This document shows positions 32,967-63,966 of a stretch of 64,000 nucleotides of DNA, one piece after another; within the stretch, counting starts at the first letter, position 1, and the number at the start of each line of letters is the position of its first letter. Below the pieces are notes generated by a model, which was not told the DNA's origin, ran no database searches, and was given only the letters and a program-made list of their open reading frames with translations. The stretch is taken from positions 164,501 to 228,500 of the forward strand of contig JAJDCD010000023.1 of NCBI GenBank assembly GCA_029261035.1. The letters are read 5' to 3'. The translations under genes were made by a program, and so were the position numbers. Source of the stretch: Candidatus Omnitrophota bacterium (lineage in GTDB: Bacteria; Omnitrophota; Omnitrophia; Omnitrophales; JACROU01).

Positions 32967-35900
32967 TTAGGCAGCTCGGCTCAGCTGTCGACCATATTCG
33001 ACACGCTTCAATAGTCCATTCAACCACATTGAGGTGGCATTATTTGAATCTTCCGAAACTCCAGTCCAAAGAACTCCATCCTTCGTTAGAAGCAGTTTCT
33101 CGGTTAAGAGATCTTCCGGATAAACGATTCTGTCTGTTACCTGTTCAATAACTGAAAGAACAGCTTCTTGGGATCCTCGCTCATCATGGCGAATTCCAAC
33201 TTCAGGAATGTCTTCGGCAGAATTTAAGCTGTCTGTATTTTTTTCTCCTAAGCTAGATGCTGTCAGCATTTCAGAAAAAAGTTGTTGCCCTCTTTCTATC
33301 TTTCGCTGAACCGTTGTTAAGGGACGTGCTTGGAGAATCACCAAAGTACCAAAAGGGTCAAAAGCCCACTCAATATCCATTGGGTAGCCATACTCTTTGA
33401 GAATGGCACGCATCGCAATCCCAATAAGTTTGATTTGCCGATCATCCAAAACCCGTTTCTTTTGCTCTGCTTCGGGTGTTTTGATTTCCTTAATAAAAGC
33501 CATTGATTTCTCTTCTAAGTCGTAACTCTCCGTTGGAAAAAGCATCAGTTTTGATTCCTTTTTTCCCGTAACTACTTCTACTATCTCAAGGTCTCTGCTT
33601 AAATCTAAGGTGATAGAATCAGGATCCACCAACCCCTCCACAGCACTCATGCCCAATCCATAAACTGCTGCAATCTGCATTTGGGACAGGTTTCCATCTG
33701 GAATATTGACACTATGAGCAACCCCCGAAGAGATCGCATTCACCATGGGCTCCACCAGGATAGCCTCGGCCCCTGAAGCCCACACTTTTGGAATCGCCCG
33801 CACCCCTTGCTCGGGCCCATGAACCGTAGGCTCTGTATGGCCTTCCCCCGCTTTAGCTTTTTCCTCGGAATCTTCTTCAAGCCCTGAACTTCGATACATA
33901 TAAACTCCCAGAGTAATCAAAGCCTGCTTCACTTCTTTAGAGACTTCATCTGTCCCACGAACAAATTCACGAAGAATTTCGCTCCAGAGTTGAGGTAATG
34001 GTTTTTCGTTAATCCCATCAAAAAACGCAAAGATTTTTTGTTTATATGCGTCTGAGGTGTTCGGATCTTTTTTCAAAAGCCCTCTCATCCATTTCACTTG
34101 CCGTTCAAATACTTTTCGGTAAGCTACCAAATGAAGTTTCTGATCTTCAGCCGACAATTGGTTGCCTTGAGATTCTTGATAGACGCGAGCCGTGATAGCA
34201 AAACCAGGAAGCGTTTTGATTTGAGGATGATTCAATGCCTCAATTACTTCATGAAATTCCGCAGAGTGAGATGCTTTCCCTCCCACAGAATGCCGGGCTA
34301 GTCGCGGAATATCTGACTTATTCATAAATTTATTAGTAGAATCCCCTGTAGCGGTTACTAGCTTTTTCGCTTTGGCCCTTGCGTCCGCCAACCGCTGTGT
34401 CAGGTCCCGCTTCGTTACTGGAGCAACATCCTCCAGTTGAACCTGTAGCAAATCACCCCATTTTAAATACTGTTTGGCCTGACGGGCCGACATTTGATCT
34501 CGTTTTGAAGAGTCCGCCTCTAGATCTTCGAATGTTCGCGTTAACCACCGCCTTCTTTCTTCCGTAACCGTCCTCATTTTTTGGTAAAGCTTCTTAAGCA
34601 TTCCTTCATAATCTGTTTCGTCAAAGTAAATCTTTTTTTCTTTCAAAAGATCTCGAATTGTCTCAATTACTCCAACTTTTTCGCGAATAACCGTTAGCGA
34701 ATAATAGATCTGCTCCATTCTCCGATTCTGTTCGATCAGCTCCGAAAACTGGTTAATCAAATCAATTAATTGGAGGGACAGGTGATGCTCTACAGTGAGA
34801 AGGTAATTGATCACGGTTGTTTTTAATCCAGAATTTGCTAATGAAGCTTGAATGATCTCTGTTTTTTGATCATCACTCAAGTTTAAAGAAAGCAATGCTT
34901 CTTGGAGTGCAAACTTTATTTGGAGCGCATCGTTCAGATGTAACACCATGGTTAGAAAAGCAACATAACCTTCATTCCGGGACGAGACAGGCCCTTTTGA
35001 CAGCGCTCTTCGCAAAGCCATGCTCAGATTTAAGATTTTTTGAATCCCCTCATTCTCAGCCGGGGCCACAGACATTAAAACTCCACGATTAGCATCCACA
35101 GTAACAACATCTCCCTCGTTGATCGTCACAAGCAGCTCTTTACCAAAATCAACTTCCGAAAAATAAATACTATCCTCCTCGGTTTCCAATTGCTGAATAG
35201 GTCTTTGCTGCGGAGTTGCGGCTTTAAACTGGAGCCTCCCCGAGGATGTAACCGTTGCTGTCTTTAGAATAAGTCCAGGTATTTGATTTTCCTGCGCCTG
35301 CGTCGCTTGATGAGACATTAGTCCTCCCGTCGTTGTTATGACTGCTAGACTCGCTTTGATTAAAGGATCATGTTTAGGAGCCGCGCTGACACCGACAAAA
35401 ATACCCCCTTCATAATCCGAGGGCTTTCTTCTGTCATTCAAGGGAATAAGACGACCCGAGACAAACCCACTTGAGGTCGGCACACCTCGTACAGCGATGA
35501 GGCTCAGCTCTTCTCTGGGATGGAGAAAAGCTCTAAGCCGTTCTTTTAAATAGCTCAAGTCTATAGAAGGCCTTTCAACTGCTTCAATTATATAACCATT
35601 AAGAGAAAAAATTTCTGCCAGATCCTTTACTGTATGCACTTGAGAATTTGCTCTCACTTTTTTTCGAGTACGATCCAGGAACGGTTGAGCAGAAGGGTTG
35701 TCACCATAGACACCATAACCTAAACAAAAACGATGCGTAATTCGATCTTGAAAAACAACGAGCCGAAAATCATCATGAGGAAACTGATACAAAAACTCTA
35801 TGACATCGTACCCTCCAGCTTGGCCTATCAACCTTGATGCATAAGCATAGCTTTGAAGGTGCTCCGTCAACTGAGCAATGTTCCAGGCTTGATTCCAGAT

Positions 35901-38900
35901 ATCACTATCCTTTTTACCTTCCTCTATTAAAAAACGAAGGAAATAGGATACGAGTGAACCCTGTTCAGACTCCCTATCCAAACCCAAACGACGCCCCCGT
36001 TCCTCTTGCTCAGCTAGGTCATCCAGATAAACTTGTCCCCAAGGGTAATCAATTAGCGGATTTATAAAGCTGGCTCGAGCCTGTTCAGAATACTGAGCTA
36101 AGATTTTTTTCTCTCCATACCTTCGAACTACCTGTTCAGTAAACCGATCCTTATATGGCTCTCCTCCCCGATAGGGAAAACCCTGCTGTAAAGTTTCAAT
36201 ACTGGGATACTGCTCGAGCAACCGCCCTAAGTGATCTTCAATTCTTGCTCGTAACTCCTCCTCGGTTTCTTCTTCTTCCCCGTCAGCATTCAAAGATGTC
36301 TTTGTCTCATCACGTTCCTTCTTCATTCGTCTTTCCAATATCCTTCGAATTAAATCTTCATCCTCCTTTACAAATGGCTGTATAATTAGATTAAACTGAG
36401 GATGGACACTCAAGGCAGGATGAAGTGTTCCCATCCGTTCATAATGATCGGCCCAAGCATTCATTAAACGATCTAAATATTCTTCTCCATTCTCTTCCTT
36501 TAAAAAAAACTTGTAGTATTTCTCAAGCCACATATCCAATTCAACCGTATTTCCTAATACATGAAGAGCTCTCTTAAGAGCTTTCCGAATTTCATACTCT
36601 GAAAAGGCCCCATGGTCCTTGTCTAACAAGGCCTCAACATGATATTTTCCTCGACGAACTGTGTGAAACCCCAAACGAACAAGGATTCGCTGAATCAAAT
36701 CAACCCGTAGTGCACTCCCCTCCCATTCTTTTCCAGAATCAGTAAACTCAATAATAGCCCGGCCTCCCTGATCAATGGGGCCCGGCCTAAAACTGGCTCG
36801 AGCCTGATGGACCCGAAATGGAATGAACAAGGTCGCCTCTCTATCTCCAGCATAAATAATTGGCTCGTTTTGAGTATCAGGTCGATAAGTATTTACATTG
36901 TGATTAGTTCCAAACGCCTCAACCAAAAACTGGACTGCCATCGGCATTGGCGATAAGGACCGGTCCTGCCTTAAATCTACGTAGCGGGGTTGAAACTTAG
37001 CTGATTGAGGAGGATGATCTGAGTGGTGTGTCACAGATAAAATTTTTACCTTACCTAAGGATTGTCTTTCGTTCGGCTTAAAGTATCTCATTTGCTCCCG
37101 AATCCCTCTTTGATGAAATATATTCAAGACCTCCTCATAGGTCAATTGTTCCACCTCTTTATTATCCATATCAATCGCCCCCAACACACCATTCCATTCA
37201 TCTGAAGGTTTACGAATCAATTCATCTACAATTAAAGTCCTCACACCTACCATACGTTCGTTAGCTGTATTCGGTAAATGAAGCTGTCCTTTTTCTCTTC
37301 TCAAGCTCGGTGAAACATAAATAATGCCCATAGAATTTCTAACTGAATGAAGGGTTTTTGAAATAGCACATCGAGCTAAACAAGCCTCTATGAGACCCGT
37401 TTGCACACTCAAATCATTGATTGGATATCCTGAGTAATGAAAATCCATACTCATGTTTTGAAGACGGTAATGCGGGCCCTCTTCATCGGGTTTTATGTAT
37501 GGGCCTGCTAAATATACTGGATTCCCTTCTTCATCATCCCTTATAATTGTTGGTTCGAACTCATCTCGAAAAAGATCAAAATAATCTACAACAAATTTTT
37601 CAAGCAGCTCCGTCACTTCCTCAAACTCTTGAAACGTCTTTTTAGGACGATGAAGAATTTGGAGGATGGTGGTGTTTAACGCTTCCCACTCCTGATATTT
37701 TTTATGATGCTCTATTTGTTTTTTGGAAGCATATGCGGCTTCTAAATCATCCACAACCGATAAGTGGTAATGGCGATCCACAATGCGAAAGCGTTCGGGC
37801 ATCTGCTCCGTTAACACTTGTGCCACCTGAGGGCTCATATTGAATCGAACCGCTTGATTTCCATCTTCTAAATTTAGCTCCTGAATATCCGTCCGCCTTT
37901 TTAGGACATCGATTAACTTTTCCGGTGGCTCCGGATAACCCGGAACACCTGAAACAACCTCTACGACTTCACGGACACTTGCATCTACCGAATGAACCAC
38001 GTTGGAAAGGCCAAATTTTTTAATAAACATATCTAACCCGTCAAGTCCAAACAGATTATAATAATAGTACAACTTCTTTTGTTCTTTCTGGACTGTTTCT
38101 CTTAATTTACGGTCTGCCGCCGCGCTCAAACCTCTTAAATAAATATCAAAAATATTTTCAGTAGAAAATTCAAGAGCTCTGTCGCCTACCCCTAAACTAG
38201 CAGCTTGAGCAGAAGACAGAGCATAGGGAACCGGTGAAAGGTTTTGCCGCAACATCAAACTTCTATAACTTTGTCTTGAGTCTCCAGACAGAGAGGGGCG
38301 AACAATACAGTAATTCCATTTAGACTGATCAAAGGTTTCCTTAAAACCTTGCGAATGGAAACCTCCGGAAATCACAATGGCTCGTTTACCATCATTGATT
38401 TCATTTTTAATCGTTCTAACGAAAGCCGTTTCTCGCAAAACAGCCAACCTATAAAAGTTGAGAGCTTCCTCTATCATAGTAACAAGGAGAGAGTCTTCTG
38501 AACTTAAAACTCGAATTCTGAGCTGCATCTTTTGAATCTGAATATATTCTTCTCTGCTTAACTCAAGCCGAACCAGTTTCCTAAGCAAGTGAAACGCTTC
38601 TACTCGCTCGACAGCTTCCTTGTCTTCTGGCTTTTTTGCGAGTTGGATCGACATAGTTTGAATCCACTCCTGGATTTCATGGAACAAATCCGGGCCATTT
38701 AATTCGGACTGGTAAATTCTGTTTTTTATCCATTGGATAAATTGGGGATAATTCAAGAAGTGAAAACCGTCATCCTTCAAGACGTCATAGAGCTGCTCCA
38801 TCAAAAACCGAGGGTTCAGGGATGAGTCCTTTTCAGAAAGAACCTCCTCAATTTTTGTGATAAGGGTTTCTGCCCCCAACCCGGAATACTGAGTACGAAT

Positions 38901-39743
38901 TGCTGAAAGCTCTTTCTTAGCTTGCTCTAAGTTCATCGACCGCTCACTATCTTTAAGGCGAAGGAGACGAACCAGATTTGGAAATTGTTTCTGTTCTTTG
39001 AATTTTCTCAAATCCCACTTTAGAGCTTTTATTGAAAGTTGATCAAGGTCTCGAACCTTTCTGTAGGCCGAATTTTTTTCTTCGTTTTGGTGGAGGTCTA
39101 TGCGGAGCAAGCTAAGTAGGTGCTTGTTATTCAACCGAGTAAAATCTTTATCCAGCTGTCTCTTAATTCTTTCCAGAGAACGTTGAACGTCTTCCTGGTG
39201 AGACATAACCTTTTTGAGAGCCTCAAAATCATCCCGATAAGCCTGAGGGTCTTCGATTCCTAAAAATTTAATTCGATTTCCATATTCGGATAGATAGACA
39301 TCACTCGCCGTAAACGCACCGGATTGAGTCAACTGCTGATGAAGTTTTTGGTTTTCTTTCGGGTCTTTTGAAAAACTCAAATACTCCGCATCCAAAGTCC
39401 CCACAGCCCCCTCAACAAACACAGTGTCAATTTTGTACTGTTTTCGAAGGTGTTCTATGAGCAAAGCTATGTTCTTTTGTGCCTCAGGATTCGAATGAGC
39501 ATCTTGAATATGGATCAGTAACGGGGTTCGCGAGTCATTAACATGGGTAAACCATTGACTCTTAACAGATTTTCCATAGGCAGCAGGAATAGAAAGGCGA
39601 GAAAATGAGTCTTTAGAGCTCATGGAAGTAGGTGCTGTATAATACGGTCCAGCTGCATAGGCTGCAGACTGAAAAGAAAAACAAACAAAGAGTACCCAAG
39701 CAAGCAAAGAAATTAGCGGAGAAAACCTCCTATCGTTTTTCAT
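32967..39743 (-). CDS. giant exported protein: TIKI/ChaN-like domain, unknown middle, rearranged PEP-synthase domains
   Basis: 2258 residues. Signal peptide with probable cleavage after SAAYA (30/31). Residues about 75-500 resemble the TIKI/ChaN/TraB fold: IHIQDAHSN (His83), VFVEGA (Glu111), RETAFVRTIK and ISGGFHSQGF (His near 462). AASLG follows at 516. The middle (520-1440) is unassigned. At 1445-1600 is a PEP-utiliser swivel domain with TTTGGLMSHQA (His1478 at the phospho-His position). Residues 1840-2140 are the ATP-grasp nucleotide domain of PEP synthase (VEPMVNAISSGVAHS, DIEWAFDPFGTLVILQARPLT). In normal PpsA the ATP domain precedes the swivel domain; here the order is reversed and the PEP-binding barrel is missing. 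ASSLG at 2164 starts a short tail ending SRAA. Confidence 0.75.
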   Translation of the reverse strand: MKNDRRFSPLISLLAWVLFVCFSFQSAAYAAGPYYTAPTSMSSKDSFSRLSIPAAYGKSVKSQWFTHVNDSRTPLLIHIQDAHSNPEAQKNIALLIEHLRKQYKIDTVFVEGAVGTLDAEYLSFSKDPKENQKLHQQLTQSGAFTASDVYLSEYGNRIKFLGIEDPQAYRDDFEALKKVMSHQEDVQRSLERIKRQLDKDFTRLNNKHLLSLLRIDLHQNEEKNSAYRKVRDLDQLSIKALKWDLRKFKEQKQFPNLVRLLRLKDSERSMNLEQAKKELSAIRTQYSGLGAETLITKIEEVLSEKDSSLNPRFLMEQLYDVLKDDGFHFLNYPQFIQWIKNRIYQSELNGPDLFHEIQEWIQTMSIQLAKKPEDKEAVERVEAFHLLRKLVRLELSREEYIQIQKMQLRIRVLSSEDSLLVTMIEEALNFYRLAVLRETAFVRTIKNEINDGKRAIVISGGFHSQGFKETFDQSKWNYCIVRPSLSGDSRQSYRSLMLRQNLSPVPYALSSAQAASLGVGDRALEFSTENIFDIYLRGLSAAADRKLRETVQKEQKKLYYYYNLFGLDGLDMFIKKFGLSNVVHSVDASVREVVEVVSGVPGYPEPPEKLIDVLKRRTDIQELNLEDGNQAVRFNMSPQVAQVLTEQMPERFRIVDRHYHLSVVDDLEAAYASKKQIEHHKKYQEWEALNTTILQILHRPKKTFQEFEEVTELLEKFVVDYFDLFRDEFEPTIIRDDEEGNPVYLAGPYIKPDEEGPHYRLQNMSMDFHYSGYPINDLSVQTGLIEACLARCAISKTLHSVRNSMGIIYVSPSLRREKGQLHLPNTANERMVGVRTLIVDELIRKPSDEWNGVLGAIDMDNKEVEQLTYEEVLNIFHQRGIREQMRYFKPNERQSLGKVKILSVTHHSDHPPQSAKFQPRYVDLRQDRSLSPMPMAVQFLVEAFGTNHNVNTYRPDTQNEPIIYAGDREATLFIPFRVHQARASFRPGPIDQGGRAIIEFTDSGKEWEGSALRVDLIQRILVRLGFHTVRRGKYHVEALLDKDHGAFSEYEIRKALKRALHVLGNTVELDMWLEKYYKFFLKEENGEEYLDRLMNAWADHYERMGTLHPALSVHPQFNLIIQPFVKEDEDLIRRILERRMKKERDETKTSLNADGEEEETEEELRARIEDHLGRLLEQYPSIETLQQGFPYRGGEPYKDRFTEQVVRRYGEKKILAQYSEQARASFINPLIDYPWGQVYLDDLAEQEERGRRLGLDRESEQGSLVSYFLRFLIEEGKKDSDIWNQAWNIAQLTEHLQSYAYASRLIGQAGGYDVIEFLYQFPHDDFRLVVFQDRITHRFCLGYGVYGDNPSAQPFLDRTRKKVRANSQVHTVKDLAEIFSLNGYIIEAVERPSIDLSYLKERLRAFLHPREELSLIAVRGVPTSSGFVSGRLIPLNDRRKPSDYEGGIFVGVSAAPKHDPLIKASLAVITTTGGLMSHQATQAQENQIPGLILKTATVTSSGRLQFKAATPQQRPIQQLETEEDSIYFSEVDFGKELLVTINEGDVVTVDANRGVLMSVAPAENEGIQKILNLSMALRRALSKGPVSSRNEGYVAFLTMVLHLNDALQIKFALQEALLSLNLSDDQKTEIIQASLANSGLKTTVINYLLTVEHHLSLQLIDLINQFSELIEQNRRMEQIYYSLTVIREKVGVIETIRDLLKEKKIYFDETDYEGMLKKLYQKMRTVTEERRRWLTRTFEDLEADSSKRDQMSARQAKQYLKWGDLLQVQLEDVAPVTKRDLTQRLADARAKAKKLVTATGDSTNKFMNKSDIPRLARHSVGGKASHSAEFHEVIEALNHPQIKTLPGFAITARVYQESQGNQLSAEDQKLHLVAYRKVFERQVKWMRGLLKKDPNTSDAYKQKIFAFFDGINEKPLPQLWSEILREFVRGTDEVSKEVKQALITLGVYMYRSSGLEEDSEEKAKAGEGHTEPTVHGPEQGVRAIPKVWASGAEAILVEPMVNAISSGVAHSVNIPDGNLSQMQIAAVYGLGMSAVEGLVDPDSITLDLSRDLEIVEVVTGKKESKLMLFPTESYDLEEKSMAFIKEIKTPEAEQKKRVLDDRQIKLIGIAMRAILKEYGYPMDIEWAFDPFGTLVILQARPLTTVQRKIERGQQLFSEMLTASSLGEKNTDSLNSAEDIPEVGIRHDERGSQEAVLSVIEQVTDRIVYPEDLLTEKLLLTKDGVLWTGVSEDSNNATSMWLNGLLKRVEYGRQLSRAA

Positions 39744-39927
39744 AAATATAGATCAACATAACCTTCCTAATTTCACGATTTTTACTAACCACAGCATTTT
39801 TTATATAAGAGTTGAATTTATCATAGGCTCCCTAAAATTTCCAGAGATTAACTGACAAATTTCCCGAGTTAAAATGACACTATTTTTTAATCGATTTATT
39901 TTCAATGGGTTATGAATGATAGTCCCT

Positions 39928-39992: not shown

Positions 39993-42900
39993 TTAGGCGG
40001 CTCGGGCTATAGCTAGATCTGCTTCGTGAGTTTGAACTAAGGCTAACAGAGCTTCCCCGACTGCGGAGAAGAATCCATCTATTTTTCTTAACCCATATTT
40101 GGTTAGGAAAGCCAGTGGGTTTTCGGATTGAGTGTAGAGCAACGCTACTCCTAAGAGGCCGTTCTCTTCATTTGGATATCTAAACTTGTTGTCTCCCACT
40201 AATGTGAAGTCCTCTGATGGATCTATGATTCTCGATAGATGGATATTGTGTTGGGCTTTGCGGATTCCTTTTGCTGCTTCCTTTTCACTTTGTGGTGTGA
40301 AATAAATATTTGGAAGATTAAGTAATGGGTGTTTATCGTATGAAGGGGCATTAGTCACCACTACTCTTAACTGCTTTGGATTTCTTGCTGCTAATTTGAA
40401 GATTTCATCCAATTGAGCTAGCGAAAAGTTTTCAATATCTTTTCCATCGATAAATACGTTTAAGGATTTTTTTAGGTAATCTAGGATAGCAACGTCTTTG
40501 GGTTGTTTTTTAGAACCTAAACTAAATCCATAGAAATCAACATTAATCTCATCATCACTTCCTACCTCTTCATCATCTCTTTCTAACTCTTTTTCAAAAG
40601 CATCCATCATTGCATAGGGATCATCATCAAAATTTTCATCAACCCTTCTATTCGCATGCATAGTTCGTTCGTGCTGGTCGTCTGATTGCAAAACAAGATT
40701 GACCGGAGACAACGTGAGACTCGTCAATGCAAAGTCTGCTTCATCCAATGGACTCAAATGGTGCGCTTGTCTGAGTTCTCTTAAGTCATAATCGAAATCC
40801 TCATATTCATCCGCTATCTGTTCTGCCGTTTCAATAAAACGATTACCCACAGGAACTGTGCGTTGACTCCCTTCAAAAGGCACAATTTCAGGAAAATCAG
40901 AAGCTAATGATTTATAATCCGAGCGCAACTTAAGAGGCCAAATCGTAACCGTGCCATCCGAGCTCATTGTTAATATATGACTTCCATCTCGACTAAAATC
41001 GGCAAAAACAAATTGTTTGGCTTCAAAATCTAAAGGCCCCACGAGAGGGACATTTTTCCTCAAATCATAAAGATAATAATTATCCTTGGTACGATCTCTC
41101 GCCAAACCAATTCGTTCAGTCCATGGGCCTTCTCTATCAAGCTGAAATGAAGCCCCATTAATATTGAATTTTGTAACATCTTCGTCCGGGTCCAACGAGT
41201 GAATTCTAAAATAGTTTATTTCGCCATCATGTGTATTTAAAATTAATTTGTTCCCTCTAGGACTTATAAAATAAGCTTCTCGTGGCCCCCTCCCCCTACT
41301 CTCATAGTAAATTCGAGCACCTTGATTAATGTGCCACACACTAATAACAGAACTATCTGGATAGTCATATTGAGACTGAATAGCAATTCTATTTCTATCT
41401 AAATCAAAAGCAAAAGAAACCAGGGGTTCTAATTGATCCTGGAAGGTGATCTTATTAGGCGGAGGAGCAGGAATAATATAACGTGTTATTTGACTCAGCT
41501 CGGGATCAAACTGAACCCGTTCCAACTGAGTTCTTGGATATTTCCGTTCGGCAACGGAACTCATATAAAAACTAGCAATGCGATCATTGACAGCGCTGAA
41601 TAATGCACTCACTCGAGGAAGAGAATTTTGGATTTCTTGAGACGTGTTCGCATCTAATTCACCTAGAAACTCATGAAGTTCTCTTCGTAATAACAAAGCT
41701 TCGCTCGGTGGAAGCTGTGTTCTGATTTCATCCAAATCTTGAGCTAAGGCATTTGCAATAGTACGGTATTCTTGCGCAATAACAATCCTTTCAATCTCAT
41801 AACTGACCTGCTCTGCTTTATCCGCATCACCCAAAGCAATCCATATCTCCAAAGCAGTTTGAAATGCTTCCAACGCATCGGATCGATAATTACTTCCTTG
41901 ATAAGAAATCCCTAAATCGGTGTAATAATCTGCCCACTCTCTCGACTCATGAGCAAGTCCACTACGCTTCAGTTCTCGTTCTCTTTTAAGCAAACTGTCT
42001 TCACTAGATTTCCCCAAACTCTTCCCCTCCACACCTGCTCGAAGCCATTCTTCTTCTTGAAGGCCTTCTTGTGGTGAGCTATCCTGAAATTGTCGTATCC
42101 ATGCCTCCTTCAATTTATCCAGCTGTGCTAGCGCTTCGTCTGGACCTATTTTCTCTGCCTTCCTCACAATATCTAACACTTCGTCCTTCCTAAATTCTCC
42201 CTCTATTTTCACCCATCCTAATTCTTCCACTTTCCTAAAACCTTCTCCTGTCTTTTCTTTCATCGTTTCTGCTATTTCAACTAAAAACTCCACGGACAGG
42301 ACTTCTTTTTTTACTGTTTCTGCCCTCACTGCTATAACCAACTTGCTTAGAGCTTCAAAGGCATGCGCAGAAGACTTTCCACTGCCTTGGGCGATTCTTT
42401 CGAAAAACTCCACGTCCAACAATTCCTCTTTCACCCTTCCCTCTCTTACTCCTCTTACCAAATGCCTTAGAGCTCCAAAGGCATGCGCAGAAGACTTTCC
42501 ACTGCCTTGGACGATTCTTTCGAAAAACTCCACGTCCAACAATTCCTCTTTCACCCTTCCCTCTCTCACTCCTCTGACGAAGTCAGTTAGAGCTTCAAAT
42601 GCCTTCCAAGAACTCTCTCCATTCGCTTCAACGATTCTTGTCAAAAACTCCACGGACAGGACTTCTTCTTTCAATTTTCCCACTCTTACTTCTGCTACCA
42701 AATATCTTAGGGTATAAAACACGTTCAAAGACTGATGTTCACTGGCTTGAACAATTCTTTTAAAGAGTTTATCTATTTCTTCTAATCGTATTTCTTTCGT
42801 GCTGCCTCCTATATAGGAGATCATTGCTTCTATTGCGTTTTCCTTCTCTTCCAATATCTTTACCAGCGTTGGGTATTTCCTTCCTAACTCTCTCCAATTT

Positions 42901-47233: not shown

Positions 47234-47250
47234 TATTTATGCTCTCTCTT

Positions 47251-48345: not shown

Positions 48346-48401
48346 AACAACACCTCTTTTAATTAAATTTTTTCTTTTTCAAATTTCTATTAAAACTACT
48401 A

Positions 48402-49109: not shown

Positions 49110-49253
49110 GTCATTCTCCTTTTTTAACCTTTTACCCTTAAAAGGCATCTATAACCGTCTACGGAAGGGTACTCTATTTTAGACGGATAAAAAAGAAAAA
49201 TACTCAAAAATTAGGTAAAACAAAGAGGTTAAGGAGGTGTTTCTACTAGAACC

Positions 49254-55200: not shown

Positions 55201-57608
55201 AAAGCTCTTCGGCTGAGAGCTGCCATTTTCGAAATAAGGTGAACAATGTCAGCATGCTGAAGCGCTTCGAGCATTAAGCGAGCCAGTGCTTTCTCTGCAC
55301 TTTCTTGTTTTAGCTTGTCCATCGAAGAGACTTGGATTAGAAGTTGTTGTTCTTCTTTTTTGTAATGTTGATTTACAAAATACCAAGCTTCCGGAATAGC
55401 ATTTGGTGTTTTCTTTAAATAAAATATAAGCCTCTCTACAATCGCATGAGGCTCTTTTTCCTGAAGTATCCGTTGGAGATCTTCCCTATGCCTAATCTCT
55501 AACGCTTGAGGTGCCCAATCAGGAAAGTAAGGGCCAAATCCCAGCCAATTCTTGACGCGGCTTGCTGTTTTCGAAAACAGGGACTTTTCTTTACTTCCTA
55601 AGCTATTTCCCTCAACACTATTGGTAAAAGCTTGTTCAAAAATAGGGGCCATTAAATCAGACTCGTATTTAAATCGAACTGCATGAAGGCCAAACACTTC
55701 GGCTTCTTCTACATTATCAGAATTATCATCAAGGAAAAGAATCTCTTCGGGTTGAATGTCTTTAAATCTTGGGTTTTGACGCAAGCGTTCAAGAACCAAA
55801 GGATAAATGTTGTTGCTTGCTTTTGAGGTCCCAAGATCTGTTGATAGAAAATGAAGATCTTCCTGAAACAGGTCTCCGTAATTTTCTCGTACAAGTCGTA
55901 AAAAGAAAGGCTCGTCCCCTGCAAGTCGGTCCGTTAGAAAACCGATTTCCTTCGAAATAGATTTTAAGTTTTCCAAAGCTTTCTTAATTTGGGCCGTTTT
56001 TTCAGGGTCTATTTCAGCTCGGTCAAAAAAGTAAAGCTCCCACCACTCTTCTAGTGTTAGCTCTGCTTTTTTCTCTGAGCGTTGGGTAATTTTCTGATTT
56101 ACTCTTTGAATATAAGCTTCCATATCCATAGTGCCATGAAGTAACTCGTAGTACACCGTACTCTTATCTCCATCATACGCAATATCTTCTCTTAATGCTT
56201 CAAGGTCCGTCTCATCTGGAACAGAAAAACCATAACGTTTTTTTAATTCTTCAATAATCAGCTCCCACCGTTGTGCACTAGAATATCTTTTGGGAAGCAA
56301 GACCCCATCAATGTCTAAAAGAAATACTCTTGGCTCAGGATAACTCTTTCCGAGGCTTGAGGCGGAAACAATGCCCATACCCGCTTCAATTAAAACAGGC
56401 TTTGGAAACTCTCCGTTTTTAGGCGCCAGCCACATAAGGTCTAAATCAAAGCTGCCATCTAGCCTTTCTGACCATGGAATTCCAACTTTTTTAATACGCT
56501 TAAATAAATACAAAAACTCTGCTTTTAGAGTCTCGTCCACATAATCTCTAAACTCGGATAAACGAGACTCTTTCAAATAGCCTGCATCGATTAAAGGCTG
56601 AAATAAACCAAGACCCTGTATTGTCGATGCAGCCTCGCGCCGTGCTCCAATGCCTACATTTGAAAAATAAGCGGAGCTACCAATGCGCGAAAACCATCTT
56701 CCTTTTAAAAAGTCAAAATATCCTGTCTTAAGGTTTCCTAGAAACTGATGTCTTGTTTCGAAAGCTTTTCCATTTATTTTAATTGCTGATATAGCTGATT
56801 CGATCATACCTGCATCATAGCGATCTGAGGAATCTGAGATTAGTTTCCATAAACGATAAAGAATATCTAAAACATCTACTTCTTTCGGATTTAATGTTAT
56901 TTGTACTGTAAATGTTTTTATGTCTTCAACGTATCCTTTTAAACCAAGTATTTTAAAATAATTTTCTATTGGCATGATTGTTGAAATATTATCAAAAGCC
57001 ATCGTTAAGACAATTTCTGTTGGGCTTACTTTTGTAAGATGAAATATGTCTCGACCTAAAGCATCTTGGTTCGGTTTATAAATATATTTTTTAGGAAAAG
57101 CACTGTTTTCTTCTAAAATTTTTGCCATTACTATTTTAAAATCTCTGACATCTTCCGGCTGAGCAAATGGTAGTATGACGGAGTGATTTCCAGAAAGAGA
57201 TCCTTTCGGATATTCTTTTTCTTGATATAATTTTGGTTCCTCCTTAAAAGCGACAAAAAAATCAGGTTGAGCGATCGGGCCTCCTCTTAACAAGTTTCTA
57301 GTTTCATACTTCCCACTAAAAATTGAGATGAGTTGACTGTAAGTGACATTCTCAGGTGACTCTAAAGAAGGAAAAGGCGTTTCAATATCCGTTGTTTCAT
57401 GAAGTGTTCTTTTTTGTCCTAAACTGGACGCTAAAGACACCTGCTGCTTTACAGGGTTCTTTAAGGCCACCTCAAAGAAAGATTTGGGCCTTGCTGCATA
57501 GACAGGCGTCGCATATTGAAGAATACTGAAAAGAAAAAAAATAATAGACACAGAAATAGCGGTAAATTTATAAAGTCGATGGGTTTTGGATGTTTGCTGA
57601 TGTTTCAC
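49254..57608 (-). CDS. giant exported modular protein with seven [AG]xSLG sites: HAD-like, GHKL-ATPase-like, HExxH and 40-residue-repeat modules
   Basis: 2784 residues from GTG 57608 (ATAAGGT upstream). Leader ends TPVYA-ARPKSFFE. SLG serines are at 62, 418, 669, 1238, 1434, 2219 and 2608. Module 418-669 is HAD-like (LLDIDGVLLP near 427, LFLDDNSDNVEEA). Module 669-1238 holds a GHKL-type ATPase (EAFSNAID near 1079, DNGLGE near 1134, GGQGNGVSGI near 1164). Module 1434-2219 has RHEFRHYLE (His1764-Glu1765-His1768), a possible zinc site. Module 2219-2608 has five clear 40-residue helical repeats and ends EWLRKDLKGN-SLG. The last module is the shared C-terminal domain ending SRAA. Modules 62-418 and 1238-1434 are unassigned. 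Role unknown. Confidence 0.75.
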   Translation of the reverse strand: MKHQQTSKTHRLYKFTAISVSIIFFLFSILQYATPVYAARPKSFFEVALKNPVKQQVSLASSLGQKRTLHETTDIETPFPSLESPENVTYSQLISIFSGKYETRNLLRGGPIAQPDFFVAFKEEPKLYQEKEYPKGSLSGNHSVILPFAQPEDVRDFKIVMAKILEENSAFPKKYIYKPNQDALGRDIFHLTKVSPTEIVLTMAFDNISTIMPIENYFKILGLKGYVEDIKTFTVQITLNPKEVDVLDILYRLWKLISDSSDRYDAGMIESAISAIKINGKAFETRHQFLGNLKTGYFDFLKGRWFSRIGSSAYFSNVGIGARREAASTIQGLGLFQPLIDAGYLKESRLSEFRDYVDETLKAEFLYLFKRIKKVGIPWSERLDGSFDLDLMWLAPKNGEFPKPVLIEAGMGIVSASSLGKSYPEPRVFLLDIDGVLLPKRYSSAQRWELIIEELKKRYGFSVPDETDLEALREDIAYDGDKSTVYYELLHGTMDMEAYIQRVNQKITQRSEKKAELTLEEWWELYFFDRAEIDPEKTAQIKKALENLKSISKEIGFLTDRLAGDEPFFLRLVRENYGDLFQEDLHFLSTDLGTSKASNNIYPLVLERLRQNPRFKDIQPEEILFLDDNSDNVEEAEVFGLHAVRFKYESDLMAPIFEQAFTNSVEGNSLGSKEKSLFSKTASRVKNWLGFGPYFPDWAPQALEIRHREDLQRILQEKEPHAIVERLIFYLKKTPNAIPEAWYFVNQHYKKEEQQLLIQVSSMDKLKQESAEKALARLMLEALQHADIVHLISKMAALSRRAFIFKTTGVLTHLAITANPTAQLAQKIIMGGFDPLLQLRSGGAFAFAQIMNDHMSLEEIKQAFSEGKFPGLFAYEILERSDGRRPKVLDRLELPEGFSLDHDGWFDSSDNAIGEGFQNAVNDVINSHIAGGGRVTEGFTRGVMKELTSPTSGLFRKVLSSVHGSLTDFAGQLAVEEAARMSRRAWNRNEEDVEISHTVFSMPQAAVLDWVQNTQETSEMKEQSDRFALSILSTLFVYLMKEKSEKETYIGNQYRLIQDTMWDGEGERLIIDLKLMVGEAFSNAIDSYLMGVYGEKILEDEDFSFGERILAHQLQSRILVDKERREFVIQLIDNGLGETSIDKRAIKRKAWKAAFEEGEEYKFFGGQGNGVSGISETVEAFGGSTKIYDRPSERGAIREIVIPFEVIRKELEELQRLQKEKEATEAEKDDEEGVDAQSLGEQEERAVMKARIKKVHVTVGVKGFEGFESYQINNAINNFKDALYLIASLVPQQNLRLKQFQDKVSQILNYRSIHIEFDKSLQTEGPFYSSEVRRGVFVLKSAFLFILNKQKTDDDVRLEQIFKGLLSSVKFSPEARKGVMQFLMNGTRLEHPDGKKVIQFPDAWPETQPETSAPTRRAQRPNIKRPDGQSNANSLGVAKPFDGDYAQLQLKSFMETHFAYFLEKTSSRLGQAKLVAGGLQLGEGFISLLSQITELTQTLDKFPREADEAEKKEWFEAFDERLMLIQKELNDSYLNKNGLYFTFDFFRNLKHPRINYILFRIDAVQTFTAVDAQGEVKDKVDIFSKTRLSFRAFGRDGSVGYFTPRDDTSHALRDELTRNVRRALVPELIHGLKEESKEGAIYKRIAEEMGITPEEFRLLEKMSVKDPAMKDHQRGRFAGFTRERLKRDLDWNPDWDLFIHGDMFEIPLITDTKLWRTFKEFMSRFDGIEYEQQRLVADLTPEFVAYLGVLKRIVHRLEQGTLRHEFRHYLERKEDFTRIQHETSAYLAQLAWGDYPYASLYGIANHAERNEPEETYYEAGKVIVSALIREMFKKYPFKDNGERYQGLSIEGDSQNFVDRLRTKNDFLAEQLPQILARLLTLNGMELRELAKNAWEIEFEKPLDDYQVLEVQESRQMESQLKDFRANRSEVYEKLTRLIEEYKETGQVDEALLHSIPLQERADADMELDLQGIDSDVLKSSRWKMITTIPRGDYHWFGKDKLRRLVQEFGRNVFQDISSTASKFLIGEVDWDYQGAAPFKYRVGVFVPVTAFFQTGFRYPSKPYLEGKSDQLFRLFNRAEADAVKNRRDMMERVTQGRYRGIHAVSESGEPLIIDRTKTLPLVHESTIRNVRQEMVHHLIIEAGGNITAEQLYDELGRLVIHSARSLDRAMDWLLSTKKGKAVLKDRLNFDPDSISIQDLTQNLNDEDVFAGWPEVVAKSLGIEQRYENSGLSEKLGMSWEKLKTQHSDLVQILNTTFNAMDLFERYINNGESLNSVEELFKRVSKVKQRPFSKSFNELKLLSEVSNKERITQVTMSVQLLTEIVKASKDAAYFVFRALRHLAESTEQNVGMGLFLDVTFLIPIVKASESGSASAIELLREVEEGVSQGLLSPKLISIESYVLIAKTSAPYQQRAFEQLRKLIERVKELKVDEEFVRLEFLEEISKAAKGYTQTAFDFLRVVGEIIKTGKLSKDVLDIELFERIAITTEKFEYDVFDLLTGVIEDVKRGTINVGVLDKGLLFEVADQMKENARYAFRRIEKLGQVAAKGVFRKDQVLEIVRKVDTIGPDEVLRQLDLLTEIWKRASQETETPLNGQEPEWLRKDLKGNSLGEEESQRAVVAILDNLSQRVNIFIGALDINNFSREQLDEIFKLAARNPKQLRVIVVNAAGYDKHPLLNLPNIYFTPQAELAAGEAIRKAKHNLHLSRMIDPAENFALVGENKFRYANDENGLLGVALLYTQSENPLSFLTKYNLRKVEGFFSSVQETLLALVQSHEADLLLSRAA

Positions 57609-57743
57609 GGTACCTTATTTCTCCATTCATACAAAGAAATTAAGCTTACCATATATTTGCTGAATTACCATTACCTGAACAGAATTTATACACTTCCTAA
57701 CTCTTTATTTTGTAAAGGGTTATGATTTTTTTAATAAGAAATG

Positions 57744-58160: not shown

Positions 58161-58173
58161 AACACTCTCCTTT

Positions 58174-61100
58174 TTAAGCCGCGATTGCGACTAAATATTG
58201 AGCTTGGTAGCTCAATACCATTTCTAATAATTGAGAACGCAAGTTTAGAACCAAGAAACCTTCTTCATCTCTTACAAAGCCATTGGTGCGGCCATCACTA
58301 TCTTGATACAAAAGAGCCATTCCTACAGTTCCTACTTCATCTCCATTATAACGCACAAAGTTAAACTTAGATTCACTTAACTGCTCTCTGGGGTCTATCC
58401 TCTTTGAGAGATGAATCATTTTGCCTTCGACGGTACGTTGTACTCTATTATAAACTTTTTCTTCATCTCCTGAATAAGCTTCTATATTTTTTGTTTTTCT
58501 AAATAAAGGTGCTAGATCACTGTTTGTATCATTATACACAAAGACTTTTACCTTATCTAAAAGAGCATAAAGAAACATCTCTTCTCTTTGTTTTTCCGTC
58601 AATAGTCTAAAGTCGTGTGCGTCTATAAGCACTGTGTGTTGTGAAGTGAGCGTATCCAGCTGTTCTTTTAGCCCTAAACTATTTCCTTCTGCTATCTTCC
58701 AGTTTTCTCCGATAGGTTGCTCACCAAAAAGCGTATGGCGCGTTGTTCTAGCTAGGTTGTGCAAGCCAGCTAAGGATGGAGTAGCCCCTTGAACTAAAAG
58801 CCAATGAAGCGGTTGTCCTAAAACTGTTCCTTCCAGAATGGCCTCCTGAATTAGAGAGCTGTTGTCTTGGATAACACGTAGAGCTCTGTCTTTTAAATTT
58901 TCGATAATTTCTTGAGAAATTAATCGTTCTGAAACAAGTATTTCTAGCGGGATAAAACCATCAATCCTTTCTTTCTGACTATCATCTTGTTCTGCCATAA
59001 CTTGAATAATTTCTACTTCTTCCCCTGAAAGACGAACGCGAAACAAAAGTCCCACATCCTCTTTCCCATAGATGGGGTGCCTATCCAAGTGTAAATGGAT
59101 CAAAATTTCGTTAGGGTTATTAGATTTAACAATATGTTGCTCCGGATGACTTACTACCATATCTAAAGCTGCTAAACGATACTCAAAAGACATCTCTACA
59201 TAAGACCAGTTCTGTCTTTTAAGTGCATTAAGTGTATTTGCTACCTTTTGTTTCAAATGATTCACTTTTTCTCCTAAAATAGTTTTCTTAATACCTAGAC
59301 TATTTCCCTGAGAAAAATCTAATAACTGAGGAGCTTTCTCTTTTGCTAATTCTACAAAAGGGGCTTTAATTTCATCTGAAATTCTATTGTTTTCTAGAAT
59401 GGCTTTTAATATATCTTCTGCTGAACTGCTAAAGTTATAGATAATCTCTAGGTTGCGACCTTTTCCACCCCCTACGGAATAAATCTGAACCCCAGGGCGC
59501 ACACCAGGCATGATTCGGAACACATCAAAACTCTCACCCGTTGTCTTAATATCTTCCATACTTAATGAAGTTGGGCGGGTTTGTTTTGGAGGCTTCTCTT
59601 TCTCAAGCTTCACTACTTTTATTGGAATTCGATGTATCTTCACACTTTTCTCTTTTGCGAGCGCTTCGAAAGCCTCTCGGATCTCACTTGGGAGGGTTCG
59701 GTCATTAATAAGTGCTAATAGAACTTCTTTTGGTTTTTTTGCCGATGGATACATAACTGTTATTTTATATTTTTTAGAAACTCTCGATTGCCTTACTGCA
59801 TCAATTTTAATTTTTGTGTCTACATTGGTTCCCATCATATTAAAAGCACCAAATTGCCTACCAACAGCTCTAATATCTTGGATTCTTAACTCTGAAACAA
59901 CTTGCTGTATCAACGGCGGCTGAGGCATCATGGCTTTTCTTCTCTTTGTTGCCTCTCTTATTCTTGCTCTTTGGATACGTCGTTGGTCGGCTTCAGTACC
60001 AATAGTCCTTTTAGGAAACCCTGAAGGAGTAACGTGAGATTCTTCTTCTTTTCCTAAGCTTCTAGCTACAACGCCCGGAACTTGATTCAATATTTCAGCA
60101 GCAATGGCAATGGAAGTATAAATTTTTGCTGTTGGTGCAATGGCTTCATTCATAAAAGCGACTGCCGCTTCGGCACCTTGAGTCATTTGCTTATAAATCC
60201 CTTTCTCATCATTAAGAACAGACACCATTTGTTGAGCTAAAGACCCTTCCTCTATGGCTTGTGCTGCTTGCGTTTTTACCAGAAGATCCTTTGCGCTTAG
60301 ATTGTAATACCAGTCATGTTTGCTTTCAAAATACAGAATAGGCACATGTTGATTTGCGGGTTCAACTATATTTCTATCTTGACCAACCAAAGCTAAGTCT
60401 GCTATCTGTGATAATTTTACCAGCTCTCCCTGAGTTCTTAAAATCACAATATCCAAGTCACGGAAGGGAACTTTATCTGCTTCCCAACTCTCATTCCTTC
60501 TTTGATCTAATAGAGTTCTCTTCTTAACTCTTAAACTGTGAAGGATCGGCGATCTCATTAACTCTCCTTCTCTGTGAAGTAAACCTAAAATAAGTATTGG
60601 TCGTTTTTCTTTATCCACTTCTCGATAAGCTTCATTGTAGGCTTTGACTATAAGTCCCGCTTCCTTTTCTGATGGAGAATAGGCAATAATTACTTTTCTT
60701 GCAGAGTTTAAAGAAGAAATATTTTTTGAGACACCCTCTTTTTTAGGTGAAAGATATTTATAAGGCATTAGCGGTAACAACTGGTCTCTAGATAAAGATA
60801 TATTTGAATTAAACGCCAAAGAAACTTCTGCTTTTGATGACCCCGCGTCATCTTCTATAGATAAAAATGGCATCTCTTCAATATCTGCTCTTTCATCAAC
60901 AGTAAAACTTACTTGTTCTGGACTTAAATTTAAAAGATCGACAACAGCTTTTGAAGCGTGGAAAAAAGCCATTCGAGCACGATAAGCAATAAATTTTAAT
61001 GTGATCTTTTTGTTACTCATAAGCGATGCGATATCTACGCTACCATCTACTTGAATATATGGGTCTAAAACACCCAAATCTCCTTTAGAGTTTCCTAACA

Positions 61101-63966
61101 GCATTAGAGCCATAAGTAAATTCATAGGATCTATTTTAAATGCTCTTCTTAAGGCGTTATGGCGTTCCTTCGTATTTGCTAAATAATTAAACCCTCTCAT
61201 TGCTGCCTCTAAATCAAACGTAGAGGTTAAAACTTCCTTAAGAAGAATGTCTCCATGAATAGAAAAAGCTTCTTGTACCGCCCCATTCCCAAAAACTGTT
61301 TTTTCACTTATTCGAGATAATGTTTCTATCATTTTTTCACTTTTAGCAGAATGCAGAATAGATCTCCACGAAGCAGAACTCATATTTTTTCTTAATAAAT
61401 TTCGAATATTTTCAACCCCTAAAAATTGGATTAAATCCTTTAAAGCATCTTTGTATTTAGTAAGAGCAAGGAAAGCTTGCCTGTAGTCATCGCGGTTCTT
61501 TTCATAAAATTCTTTCATTAAGTCTATGCCCAACGAGTCGGGTTGGATCAATTCATCAAAAAGTTTTTTCAGCAAAGCATCTTTCCTCATTGCAACAGAC
61601 ACATCTTCCTGCAGCATCCCCAAACTAGCAGCTGATGAAGGCTTTGAATTTTTAGTTACATCAAATAATATTTTGAAACGCAAACGATATTTGTTGGTAT
61701 CCCCATCTGGAAAAAGAATGCCTCTCTTATAATCTTCTACTAGAAAAGAACTTCTCCATACTTCATAAGAACCTCTTGCCTCAGAATTCAAAGATTCATA
61801 AAGCGCCGGTTGACCATAAGGATCATATAAAGCCATTTTCAACCATTCAGAATCTGACTCCAACGCTCCATAACGATCTCTAACAACCTTTTCTGCATTC
61901 GTCTTAAGCCATTTTAAGGCTAATGAATTTAGGATCTCTTCAGCAGGAATATAAGCAGAATAAATCCCTTCAGCGTCATCTAACCTCTTAATCATAGTTT
62001 GAGCTAGGGTAAAACCATTTGATTCCCTTATAAAACGAAATAAAATATTAGCTACTCCTGAGTCTCTTCCTTCTTGTTTTAATTGAAAATGAACCCAATG
62101 CTCTCCCTGAGCACCCAACACCAACGGACCAGAACCTTCTTGTCCTTGAATCAAAGATAAATTGAAATTTTCCTCTTTTCTTATACGACCTGATAAATTC
62201 CTTACCCTTCCTTCTAAATACTCAACTAGTTCTGATGTCTTTGGATTTGATTCTGGTGATATTCTCCAACGAAATAACCCTTCTTCTCCTTTGGAAATGT
62301 TTTCTCCAAAATATTTAATAGTGACCCTTTCTTCATCTTTTCTAACTTTTGTCCAAAGCCCTTTCACATTCCCGGAAATACCTTCTGCGAGTTTTTCACT
62401 GTTTAAATACCATCTTGTATTATTTTTTCTTGCTTCTAAAATTTTCTTTATTTGCTCCTTTTCTGGTTCTATAGCATCTTGTGCTAAATGGATGATCCAA
62501 TCGACGATATTCTGTGGAAGAACTTCAGTTAACGAAACAATAGCTCCATGAATTTCCATTAATGCTTTTGTTTCTCCTAAAGGCTCTGTTAATTCTATGC
62601 CTGTATCCGTTTCTTCTATTCTAAAGAACAGTCCATTTTCTCCCTTTCCTTCTTTTATCATATGGAGATGTAGCCAAAGGGAGCCATCCGGGCCAGGCCA
62701 TATATGCCCCTCTAAAGTAGTCTTTGGGTTATATTCCATCTCAAAGCCTGCTTTCACCGCTTCTGGGTTTTCATAAAAACCCTGCATATCTGAGACTACT
62801 TGCTCTTTAAGAAGACGTACAACATCTATATTCTTCTCTCCAAGACTGGCTCCAGTTATTTTTACTAGCTCTGAGATTGTTTGGAAAATCTCTGAAGAAA
62901 AAGGGTCTTCAAATCTTTTTTGTTCTTCTAACGTTAAATCTTCAAAAAAGGTTAGAATTTCTTCCCATGGAGAAAAAATAGCATAACTTATCTTTCTTGC
63001 AGTTTCTTCTTTCAAATAGTCTACCTCAAAATACCCTGTTCTTTCGTGAATATGCTCTGGCATATAAGATTCAATCTCTTCTCTCTTTTCCGCCAAATAA
63101 AAAGGAACATGCTCCTCTCTCAAAGAATGCCAGTATTTACGACTTTCCTCTTCGTTAAGAAAAGCCACTGTGGCAAATTCATAAGCAAGAGAACCTTCCC
63201 TTCTTAAACTTGCTTGATACCCAACCTCATACACCGTAGTGTCTTGAGTGCCCAACTGGTTAGATAATTGTTTTATGGAAACATCCTGAGGAGAATGATT
63301 AAAAATTTGTGGATCATGTTTAGAAAAACGAACATTTAAACCATTTTTTGATGGAACCACTTTAGAAATTAGGAAGTATTCTCCAGGACTCATTTCAGCA
63401 AAAACAAAAGTCTTCACAAGACCATAGGAAAAGCTTCCCTTTTGAACTTGAATATCTCGTACAAGCCCCTTTTCTTCATAAACCCCAACTCCAAGAGGTG
63501 TGAGTTTTTTTCTTTTCTGCTCTAAAACGTCCGGGTAAACAGAAACAAATTGTGTCTTTTTTCCTTTAGGCAAATAATTCCAAATAAGTTCTGCAATCTC
63601 TTTTGCTTTTAAAACCCCATTGTCCCGCACCAAATCTGTTAAGCGATATCCCTTTGCTAAGTAAGGATTCATAAGAAGCATTCGGTCAAAATTTTCATCA
63701 CTGTATCCTTCAATAGCACTTAAATAAACGAGAGCATGATTCATTTTTTTTTGGATATGCTCTATATCAAACTTTTCCTGCTCCCCTTTATCCCCTAAAG
63801 ACTTAGCCGTAGAGAAACTCGAAGCCTGTTCAAAAAACGATAAAGGCCTTGCTGCAAATACAGGCGTCACATAAACAAATGTATTTAAAAGTATGAAAGA
63901 AAGGGACACAAAAATAGCGATGGGTTTTCTTAATGAGTATAATTTTGGTTTAATTGGATTGCTCAC
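58174..63966 (-). CDS. giant exported modular protein with six [AG]xSLG sites and a WaaA-like module
   Basis: Start taken at GTG 63966 with AGGAG about 12 bp before it (1930 residues); an in-frame TTG at 63990 is possible. Signal segment ends TPVFA-ARPLSFFE. SLG serines are at 56, 374, 781, 1303, 1556 and 1763. Module 374-781 repeats a beta pattern (WLHLHMIKEG...GLFFRI; WVHFQLKQEG...NILFRF) that recurs in module 1556-1763 (ILIHLHLDR...GLLFRV). Module 781-1303 contains, at about 1090-1250, a glycosyltransferase-B-like segment resembling Kdo transferase WaaA (TQGELVKLSQIADLALVG, VEPANQHVPILYF). Module 1303-1556 holds a pair of related units. The final domain is shared and ends VAIAA. Confidence 0.7.
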   Translation of the reverse strand: MSNPIKPKLYSLRKPIAIFVSLSFILLNTFVYVTPVFAARPLSFFEQASSFSTAKSLGDKGEQEKFDIEHIQKKMNHALVYLSAIEGYSDENFDRMLLMNPYLAKGYRLTDLVRDNGVLKAKEIAELIWNYLPKGKKTQFVSVYPDVLEQKRKKLTPLGVGVYEEKGLVRDIQVQKGSFSYGLVKTFVFAEMSPGEYFLISKVVPSKNGLNVRFSKHDPQIFNHSPQDVSIKQLSNQLGTQDTTVYEVGYQASLRREGSLAYEFATVAFLNEEESRKYWHSLREEHVPFYLAEKREEIESYMPEHIHERTGYFEVDYLKEETARKISYAIFSPWEEILTFFEDLTLEEQKRFEDPFSSEIFQTISELVKITGASLGEKNIDVVRLLKEQVVSDMQGFYENPEAVKAGFEMEYNPKTTLEGHIWPGPDGSLWLHLHMIKEGKGENGLFFRIEETDTGIELTEPLGETKALMEIHGAIVSLTEVLPQNIVDWIIHLAQDAIEPEKEQIKKILEARKNNTRWYLNSEKLAEGISGNVKGLWTKVRKDEERVTIKYFGENISKGEEGLFRWRISPESNPKTSELVEYLEGRVRNLSGRIRKEENFNLSLIQGQEGSGPLVLGAQGEHWVHFQLKQEGRDSGVANILFRFIRESNGFTLAQTMIKRLDDAEGIYSAYIPAEEILNSLALKWLKTNAEKVVRDRYGALESDSEWLKMALYDPYGQPALYESLNSEARGSYEVWRSSFLVEDYKRGILFPDGDTNKYRLRFKILFDVTKNSKPSSAASLGMLQEDVSVAMRKDALLKKLFDELIQPDSLGIDLMKEFYEKNRDDYRQAFLALTKYKDALKDLIQFLGVENIRNLLRKNMSSASWRSILHSAKSEKMIETLSRISEKTVFGNGAVQEAFSIHGDILLKEVLTSTFDLEAAMRGFNYLANTKERHNALRRAFKIDPMNLLMALMLLGNSKGDLGVLDPYIQVDGSVDIASLMSNKKITLKFIAYRARMAFFHASKAVVDLLNLSPEQVSFTVDERADIEEMPFLSIEDDAGSSKAEVSLAFNSNISLSRDQLLPLMPYKYLSPKKEGVSKNISSLNSARKVIIAYSPSEKEAGLIVKAYNEAYREVDKEKRPILILGLLHREGELMRSPILHSLRVKKRTLLDQRRNESWEADKVPFRDLDIVILRTQGELVKLSQIADLALVGQDRNIVEPANQHVPILYFESKHDWYYNLSAKDLLVKTQAAQAIEEGSLAQQMVSVLNDEKGIYKQMTQGAEAAVAFMNEAIAPTAKIYTSIAIAAEILNQVPGVVARSLGKEEESHVTPSGFPKRTIGTEADQRRIQRARIREATKRRKAMMPQPPLIQQVVSELRIQDIRAVGRQFGAFNMMGTNVDTKIKIDAVRQSRVSKKYKITVMYPSAKKPKEVLLALINDRTLPSEIREAFEALAKEKSVKIHRIPIKVVKLEKEKPPKQTRPTSLSMEDIKTTGESFDVFRIMPGVRPGVQIYSVGGGKGRNLEIIYNFSSSAEDILKAILENNRISDEIKAPFVELAKEKAPQLLDFSQGNSLGIKKTILGEKVNHLKQKVANTLNALKRQNWSYVEMSFEYRLAALDMVVSHPEQHIVKSNNPNEILIHLHLDRHPIYGKEDVGLLFRVRLSGEEVEIIQVMAEQDDSQKERIDGFIPLEILVSERLISQEIIENLKDRALRVIQDNSSLIQEAILEGTVLGQPLHWLLVQGATPSLAGLHNLARTTRHTLFGEQPIGENWKIAEGNSLGLKEQLDTLTSQHTVLIDAHDFRLLTEKQREEMFLYALLDKVKVFVYNDTNSDLAPLFRKTKNIEAYSGDEEKVYNRVQRTVEGKMIHLSKRIDPREQLSESKFNFVRYNGDEVGTVGMALLYQDSDGRTNGFVRDEEGFLVLNLRSQLLEMVLSYQAQYLVAIAA

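Follow-up and report, generated by a model that had tools for sequence, protein, structure and literature searches.

A genome-uniform, lineage-specific five-residue motif punctuates giant exported proteins of an Omnitrophota bacterium

In viral polyproteins, one chain carries repeated short protease sites between its domains and the specificity of these sites co-evolves with the protease. In MARTX toxins, a C80 protease (CPD) frees the effectors by cutting at Leu in the unstructured segments between them (PMC2900308), and many exported proteins of Plasmodium carry PEXEL, a five-residue motif that is cut by a dedicated protease before export to the host cell (PMC3567231, PMC3738491). Here we analysed a 64,000-nucleotide stretch of Candidatus Omnitrophota bacterium (the window; positions 164,501 to 228,500 of contig JAJDCD010000023.1, assembly GCA_029261035.1) encoding four giant proteins, A to D, each with a signal-peptide-like segment at its N terminus and all punctuated by the motif Ala/Gly-x-Ser-Leu-Gly ([AG]xSLG). 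This punctuation is a sharp five-residue motif that is uniform across the genome, confined to giant proteins, located outside recognised domains and swapped in concert between lineages.

The giants would resemble MARTX as multi-effector exported chains, and the SLG sites, like the AR[LM] sites of related lineages, also centre on Leu or Met in linkers. They differ from MARTX in starting with Sec-type signal segments, in the 45 matches to the N-terminal domain in one genome, in a genome-wide five-residue code with lineage dialects and in giving no C80 match (the controls being silent as well); no RTX repeats appeared in Pfam scans of selected giants, although no RTX-aimed search was made. In contrast to viral polyproteins, the giants are cellular, Sec-exported and encoded by tens of separate genes, and their protease is putative. 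PEXEL comprises one site near the N terminus, compared to up to 24 along one chain here, and belongs to an unrelated organism. Membership in none of these classes is claimed.

Giant open reading frames (ORFs) of Omnitrophota, such as that of Velamenicoccus archaeovorus, have few recognised domains, are tied to predation or parasitism and have functions called difficult to assess in the consulted part of one account (PMC10066038). Excerpts of two others describe giant proteins with mixed enzyme and peptidase domains (PMC12419801) and call the integrity of giant proteins in Omnitrophota and relatives unclear (PMC12057145). The V. archaeovorus giant belongs to the same phylum as the giants described here and is likened to them by phylum and size, not by family. 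The same portions of the three accounts make no mention of a punctuation motif (PMC10066038, PMC12419801, PMC12057145), and those of the first two likewise mention neither an Ala-Ala end nor Cys depletion of the giants (PMC10066038, PMC12419801). No report of an Omnitrophota polyprotein was found in the open-licence literature. To our knowledge, no described system has a genome-uniform peptide that punctuates dozens of giant exported proteins and is swapped between lineages. The novelty rests on the observed code itself and not on proven cleavage.

Occurrence and position of the motif

The initial annotation of the window had listed 22 [AG]xSLG sites with K, N, S, A, Q, R or F at the x position, and only three further SLG triplets in the four proteins. 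All 22 were recovered at their plus-strand coordinates, all matched [AG]-x-S-L-G with the same set of x residues, and the three other triplets (RQSLG at 37053, LISLG at 44487 and PDSLG at 61528) all lacked the Ala/Gly. SLG occurred 25 times in the four ORFs in comparison to 3.8 expected by composition and was the most over-represented tripeptide among those with at least 8 copies. For the full motif, the 22 sites compare with 0.48 expected, and 2000 residue shuffles of the four ORFs yielded a mean of 0.46 and a maximum of 4.

The genome that contains the window (G000) is a 2.70-Mb draft, of which three contig stretches totalling 1.2 Mb were surveyed for ORFs. Twenty-eight ORFs with at least two motifs carried 152 [AG]xSLG sites (4.5 expected); as these giants were chosen by the motif, selection inflates their count, and what is informative is the near-background remainder, with 27 sites in 979 proteins compared to 18.8 expected, together with the constraint and dialect tests described below. 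The initial annotation had underestimated the finding, as the motif occurs throughout the genome, keeps to giant exported proteins and differs between lineages. Nearly all 28 giants have a signal-peptide-like start. Two neighbouring ORFs (C16:528766 and C16:534751), one without the usual end and the other without a start, look like one gene broken by a frameshift, and one further giant is truncated by a contig end. Every complete giant has Ala at its C terminus, and Ala-Ala ends 23 of the 28 ORFs versus 13 of the 979 other proteins; this end could be a degron or a docking end. Cys accounts for 0.03% of residues in mature giants, whereas other exported-like proteins contain 0.49% and the remaining proteins 0.99%. 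Ala-Ala C-termini, present for example at window positions 32970, 39996, 49257 and 58177, were seen too in giants of lineages with other motifs, and giants were also Cys-poor in most other lineages sampled.

Among seven giants compared, 0 of 25 Pfam stretches contained a motif and two AlphaFold models placed it between units, which bears out the earlier placement of the sites at module boundaries. In the model of the N-terminal part of A (mean predicted local distance difference test, pLDDT, of 89), site A1 lies in a poorly predicted stretch past a folded domain. The model of the C-terminal part of C, which had low confidence overall and served only for placing the disordered stretch, has site C7 in its worst-predicted stretch. 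One kinase domain starts 4 residues past a motif site, and a block of 1630 residues common to A (528-2156) and the related genome G002 starts 12 residues past one site and stops 8 residues ahead of the next. Flanks of the motif were hydrophilic (mean hydropathy -0.88 at positions -12 to -5), and those of the ARL dialect described below were Pro-enriched. The giants also contain tandem sites 11-46 residues apart, and therefore no domain can be flanked by these pairs.

Domain scans identified several independently folding units per ORF. Middle units of selected giants matched Pfam Ser/Thr kinase, Macro, His_Phos, NUDIX, PPDK_N, PEP-utilizer, HAD and methyltransferase domains, as well as metallophosphoesterase, TPR and arrays of LuxR/sigma70-region-4 helix-turn-helix domains. 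Such enzyme and DNA-binding domains are normally cytoplasmic. The middle of A is a 1650-residue unit with PEP-utilizer and PPDK_N domains, followed by a short C-terminal unit ending in SRAA; the units of B comprise methyltransferases, alpha-helical repeats and a weakly propeller-like unit, and those of C comprise HAD, HATPase-like, HExxH and helical repeat units and a C-terminal domain. The DAH domain, the N-terminal domain of A, is missing from B, C and D, which have just a signal peptide and a short peptide ahead of the first site. This site stands about 20-30 residues past the signal peptide in all three and resembles a pro-peptide site.

Lineage dialects and constraint on the peptide

Loci related to the giants were labelled as Omnitrophota, save a few otherwise named records. 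Related genomes encode homologous giants with the same N-terminal domain and a different motif, and among the giants sampled each motif was near-exclusive to its lineage. The recurrence of [AG]xSLG in related genomes, for which the initial annotation had proposed a search, was found in part: it recurs in G001/G002 (61 in comparison to 1.8 expected, with no ARL) and in G014/G005 (12 in comparison to 0.8), and other lineages have other motifs instead. Giants of G039-G043 carry [AG]ARL[AGS], with 153 copies in total versus about 1.7 expected and SLG near background (8 versus 5.8 expected), with [AG]ARMA in those of G041 and G042. Families f3, f5 and f8 carry R[SA]E.R (138 versus about 4.7 expected; SLG 3), for which preferred spellings vary by genome: RSEMR occurs 8 times and RSELR never in G006, RSELR occurs 15 times and RSEMR never in G021, and G022 spells the site HAELR/RPELR. 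This concerted swap of dispersed sites points to a putative trans-acting recogniser; a change in a recogniser shared by all sites is suggested because the dispersed sites were recoded together, each time by different DNA.

Swapping [AG], S, L or G for other residues gave counts at or near background in the giants, including 2 copies of [AG]xTLG (2.6 expected) and 2 of [AG]xSLA (4.6 expected). The x position favoured A, S, K, Q and N and never held I, L, G, P or Y, and no halo of decaying motif copies surrounded [AG]xSLG. On the DNA level, the pattern AGY-TTR-GG in motif context had 112 in-frame occurrences and a single one across the other five frames, and the other dialects gave 153 in frame versus 6 elsewhere (ARL) and 83 versus 2 (RSE). 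The DNA of motif copies was almost always distinct within each dialect (44/46, 46/48 and 66/71), and third codon positions of the motif varied. Selection acts on the peptide, since variants stay at background, codons differ between copies and the DNA pattern keeps to one frame.

Explanations for the punctuation

With slightly better than even confidence, we lean towards a dedicated protease that would read the linker motif after export and release the units from a giant polyprotein. Proteins A to D belong to a wider Omnitrophota family of such giants. Each giant would then open with a signal peptide and an N-terminal domain, continue with a variable series of independently folding units and close with a C-terminal unit whose last residues are Ala-Ala; the flexible linkers that join the units would hold a short recognition site. 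A dedicated trans-acting factor would read this site with a specificity that changed between lineages, and this factor would be a protease that acts after Sec export and frees the units. The units may be exported to act as tools or effectors, and a bacterium that lives as a predator or parasite would plausibly deliver them to other cells such as prey or hosts; such a role is suggested because many units are of a normally cytoplasmic type and the chains are nearly Cys-free. The bond between Leu (or Met) and the small residue would be the candidate cut, since this pair is conserved in two of the three dialects. Of the cleavage originally proposed, the splitting of exported polyproteins into units stands as the best explanation in view of the peptide constraint, the domain-free sites and the dialects, whereas the signal-peptidase-like enzyme is not supported. 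More tentatively, and at somewhat short of even confidence, there may be a whole polyprotein economy in which dozens of Sec-exported giants per genome carry effector-like strings, one protease serves them all and the code is switched genome-wide in step.

Several observations weigh against the protease. None with a matching specificity was found among families S26, S41, S8 and C80: the own genome has one ordinary copy each of S26 (LepB) and S41, neither of them a convincing candidate, S8 was not found in G000, G001, G014, G006 or G039 among nine genomes searched, and C80 gave no match in the nine genomes, where its absence is unproven as control genomes were equally silent. None of the three motifs occurred in the thinly sampled giants of an Auribacter-labelled genome, O. 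magneticus and three others, and therefore giants are not strictly dependent on the sites. Additionally, a bias in the Ser codon, taken up below, would allow the motif to have spread by linker copying.

In the main rival explanation, the motif may be a short linear docking site at which a periplasmic or secretion-system factor binds each linker and leaves it uncut, for instance so that the giant stays unfolded during transport or is assembled on the surface. We regard this as unlikely, though deserving serious weight. Docking accounts equally well for how sharply the motif is defined, its place in linkers, its uniformity within the genome and the dialects, it agrees with the outcome of the four protease searches, and a second docking element may lie in the conserved Ala-Ala end. 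However, the pro-peptide-like position of the first site in B, C and D and the tandem sites fit cleavage or unit loss more simply, and many of the units are free-acting enzymes of cytoplasmic type.

The initial annotation had offered a gene-fusion scar as its alternative, in which units were joined by linker copying and the motif was inherited without present function. Common descent of many sites is indeed suggested by their Ser codon, which was AGY in 127 of 152 sites in comparison to a background of about 37%; G001, the sister genome, has AGY at 33 of 40. Since no single silent change converts AGY into TCN or the reverse, a common history links many of the sites: linkers may have been copied along with units or Ser may have replaced an Arg codon. 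Repeat units also share longer flanks (such as EWLR...SLG). A functionless scar is nonetheless improbable, as the motif's one-step variants show no enrichment even though neighbouring residues vary freely, synonymous sites vary, homologous giants of relatives use other motifs and no relative could be detected in the genome sample for about half of the units.

Cleavage after A-x-S by a signal-peptidase-like enzyme, the mechanism first proposed, conforms to the small-residue rule in this lineage (Ala or Gly at -3 and Ser at -1), but the homologous dialects place Arg (ARL) or a Glu/Arg-rich site (RSExR) there, the flanks are hydrophilic and provide no h-region, and LepB is the only, ordinary S26 enzyme, all of which makes this mechanism highly improbable. 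A DNA or RNA element that happens to encode the peptide (a recombination site, palindromic repeat insertion or recoding signal) would account for the codon bias at Ser and Leu but is barely credible and was rejected on the frame and codon tests, given the single reading frame, the near-background counts outside giants and the distinct DNA of almost every copy, with no conserved flank, unlike the conserved DNA of in-frame palindromic repeat insertions. Separately, the peptides VILSETKDL and IPSEVEGS occur inside giants G000:C18:285802 and C16:64201, and we take them to resemble products of widespread bacterial palindromic repeats.

The punctuation code makes the question of whether these giants are intact or divided directly testable and predicts the division points. 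It also lets units be annotated singly; the HAD domain of C was reported only after its unit was cut out for the scan. The code also implies that a recogniser is still to be discovered, which may be a protease whose specificity for five residues can evolve, and suggests that a shared cutting or docking machine turns one giant into many separate tools.

Features of the window and the N-terminal domain

Coordinates of the giants, their units and the motif sites are given in Table 1; the start of D lies close to the window edge.

Table 1. Giant proteins, selected domains and units, and [AG]xSLG sites in the window
Feature	Position	Strand	Remarks
Giant protein A, 2258 aa	32967..39743	-	Signal peptide, N-terminal DAH domain, 2 motifs
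Giant protein B, 2064 aa	39993..46187	-	7 motifs; C-terminal domain ends ...IARAA
Giant protein C, 2784 aa	49254..57608	-	7 motifs; C-terminal domain ends ...LSRAA
Giant protein D, 1938 aa	58174..63990	-	6 motifs; C-terminal domain ends ...VAIAA
N-terminal DAH domain of A	38244..39638	-	Remotely ChaN/EreA-like (Tiki superfamily, weak evidence)
Unit C2	55605..56357	-	HAD hydrolase (PF00702, E 5e-8), residues 10-222 of 251-aa motif-bounded unit
Unit C3	53898..55604	-	HATPase_c-like domain toward C-terminal side, under Pfam cut-off
Unit C5	50955..53309	-	HExxH (zincin-like) segment; candidate cis metalloprotease or effector
C-terminal domain of C	49254..49787	-	Family with 7 copies in genome; ends AA
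C-terminal domain of B	39993..40523	-	Ends AA
C-terminal domain of D	58174..58680	-	Ends AA
Site A1 AASLG	38190..38204	-	Low-pLDDT stretch of AlphaFold model m3ed1cc200245
Site A2 ASSLG	33246..33260	-	14 aa past PPDK_N end
Site B1 AASLG	45927..45941	-	Soon after signal peptide
Site B2 AKSLG	45000..45014	-	
Site B3 AKSLG	44286..44300	-	
Site B4 GKSLG	43710..43724	-	
Site B5 ASSLG	42948..42962	-	
Site B6 GKSLG	42012..42026	-	
Site B7 GFSLG	40515..40529	-	
Site C1 ASSLG	57417..57431	-	Soon after signal peptide
Site C2 ASSLG	56349..56363	-	About 10 aa ahead of HAD domain
Site C3 GNSLG	55596..55610	-	About 29 aa past HAD domain
Site C4 AQSLG	53889..53903	-	After HATPase-like domain; motif there too in G002 homologue, at slightly different distance
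Site C5 ANSLG	53301..53315	-	
Site C6 AKSLG	50946..50960	-	
Site C7 GNSLG	49779..49793	-	Lowest-confidence stretch of AlphaFold model m5735b5910cd1
Site D1 AKSLG	63793..63807	-	Soon after signal peptide
Site D2 GASLG	62839..62853	-	
Site D3 AASLG	61618..61632	-	
Site D4 ARSLG	60052..60066	-	
Site D5 GNSLG	59293..59307	-	
Site D6 GNSLG	58672..58686	-	

The DAH domain, with invariant QDAH, Glu and GGxH, is common to most N-terminal units; besides its 45 matches in the own genome it was present in 39 of 39 relatives searched, where open frames that bear it reach 24,618 residues (G001:C1 near 73188). Its likeness to the ChaN/EreA/Tiki superfamily consists of weak profile matches to PF04187 (6 of 56 members, best 4e-5) and a fold search that listed EreC and ChaN, none of them significant (best E 0.06). 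The domain differs from this superfamily by a large helical insertion, and an enzymatic role for it would be putative. When the N- and C-terminal domains and four of the units were compared by sequence with the PDB, nothing useful emerged beyond a weak HAD match. Plausible HExxH segments were found in five giants, namely protein C (window 52305-52319, near residue 1764), C24:62551, C18:285802, C16:99816 and C16:271465, and each could mark either the processing protease or an effector.

Between giants B and C, the window encodes three small exported-like proteins of unassigned family (46334-49148). Elsewhere in the genome, two ORFs of more than 4200 residues without the motif (G000:C24:453301-465966 and C18:374599-387951) apparently represent another kind of giant. 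The 8077-residue giant at G000:C18:285802-310035 carries 24 motifs and arrays of LuxR/sigma70-region-4 helix-turn-helix domains, which is odd for an exported protein, and the exported giants at G000:C16:19771-29967 and C24:210554-219130 contain five and two Ser/Thr protein kinase domains, respectively.
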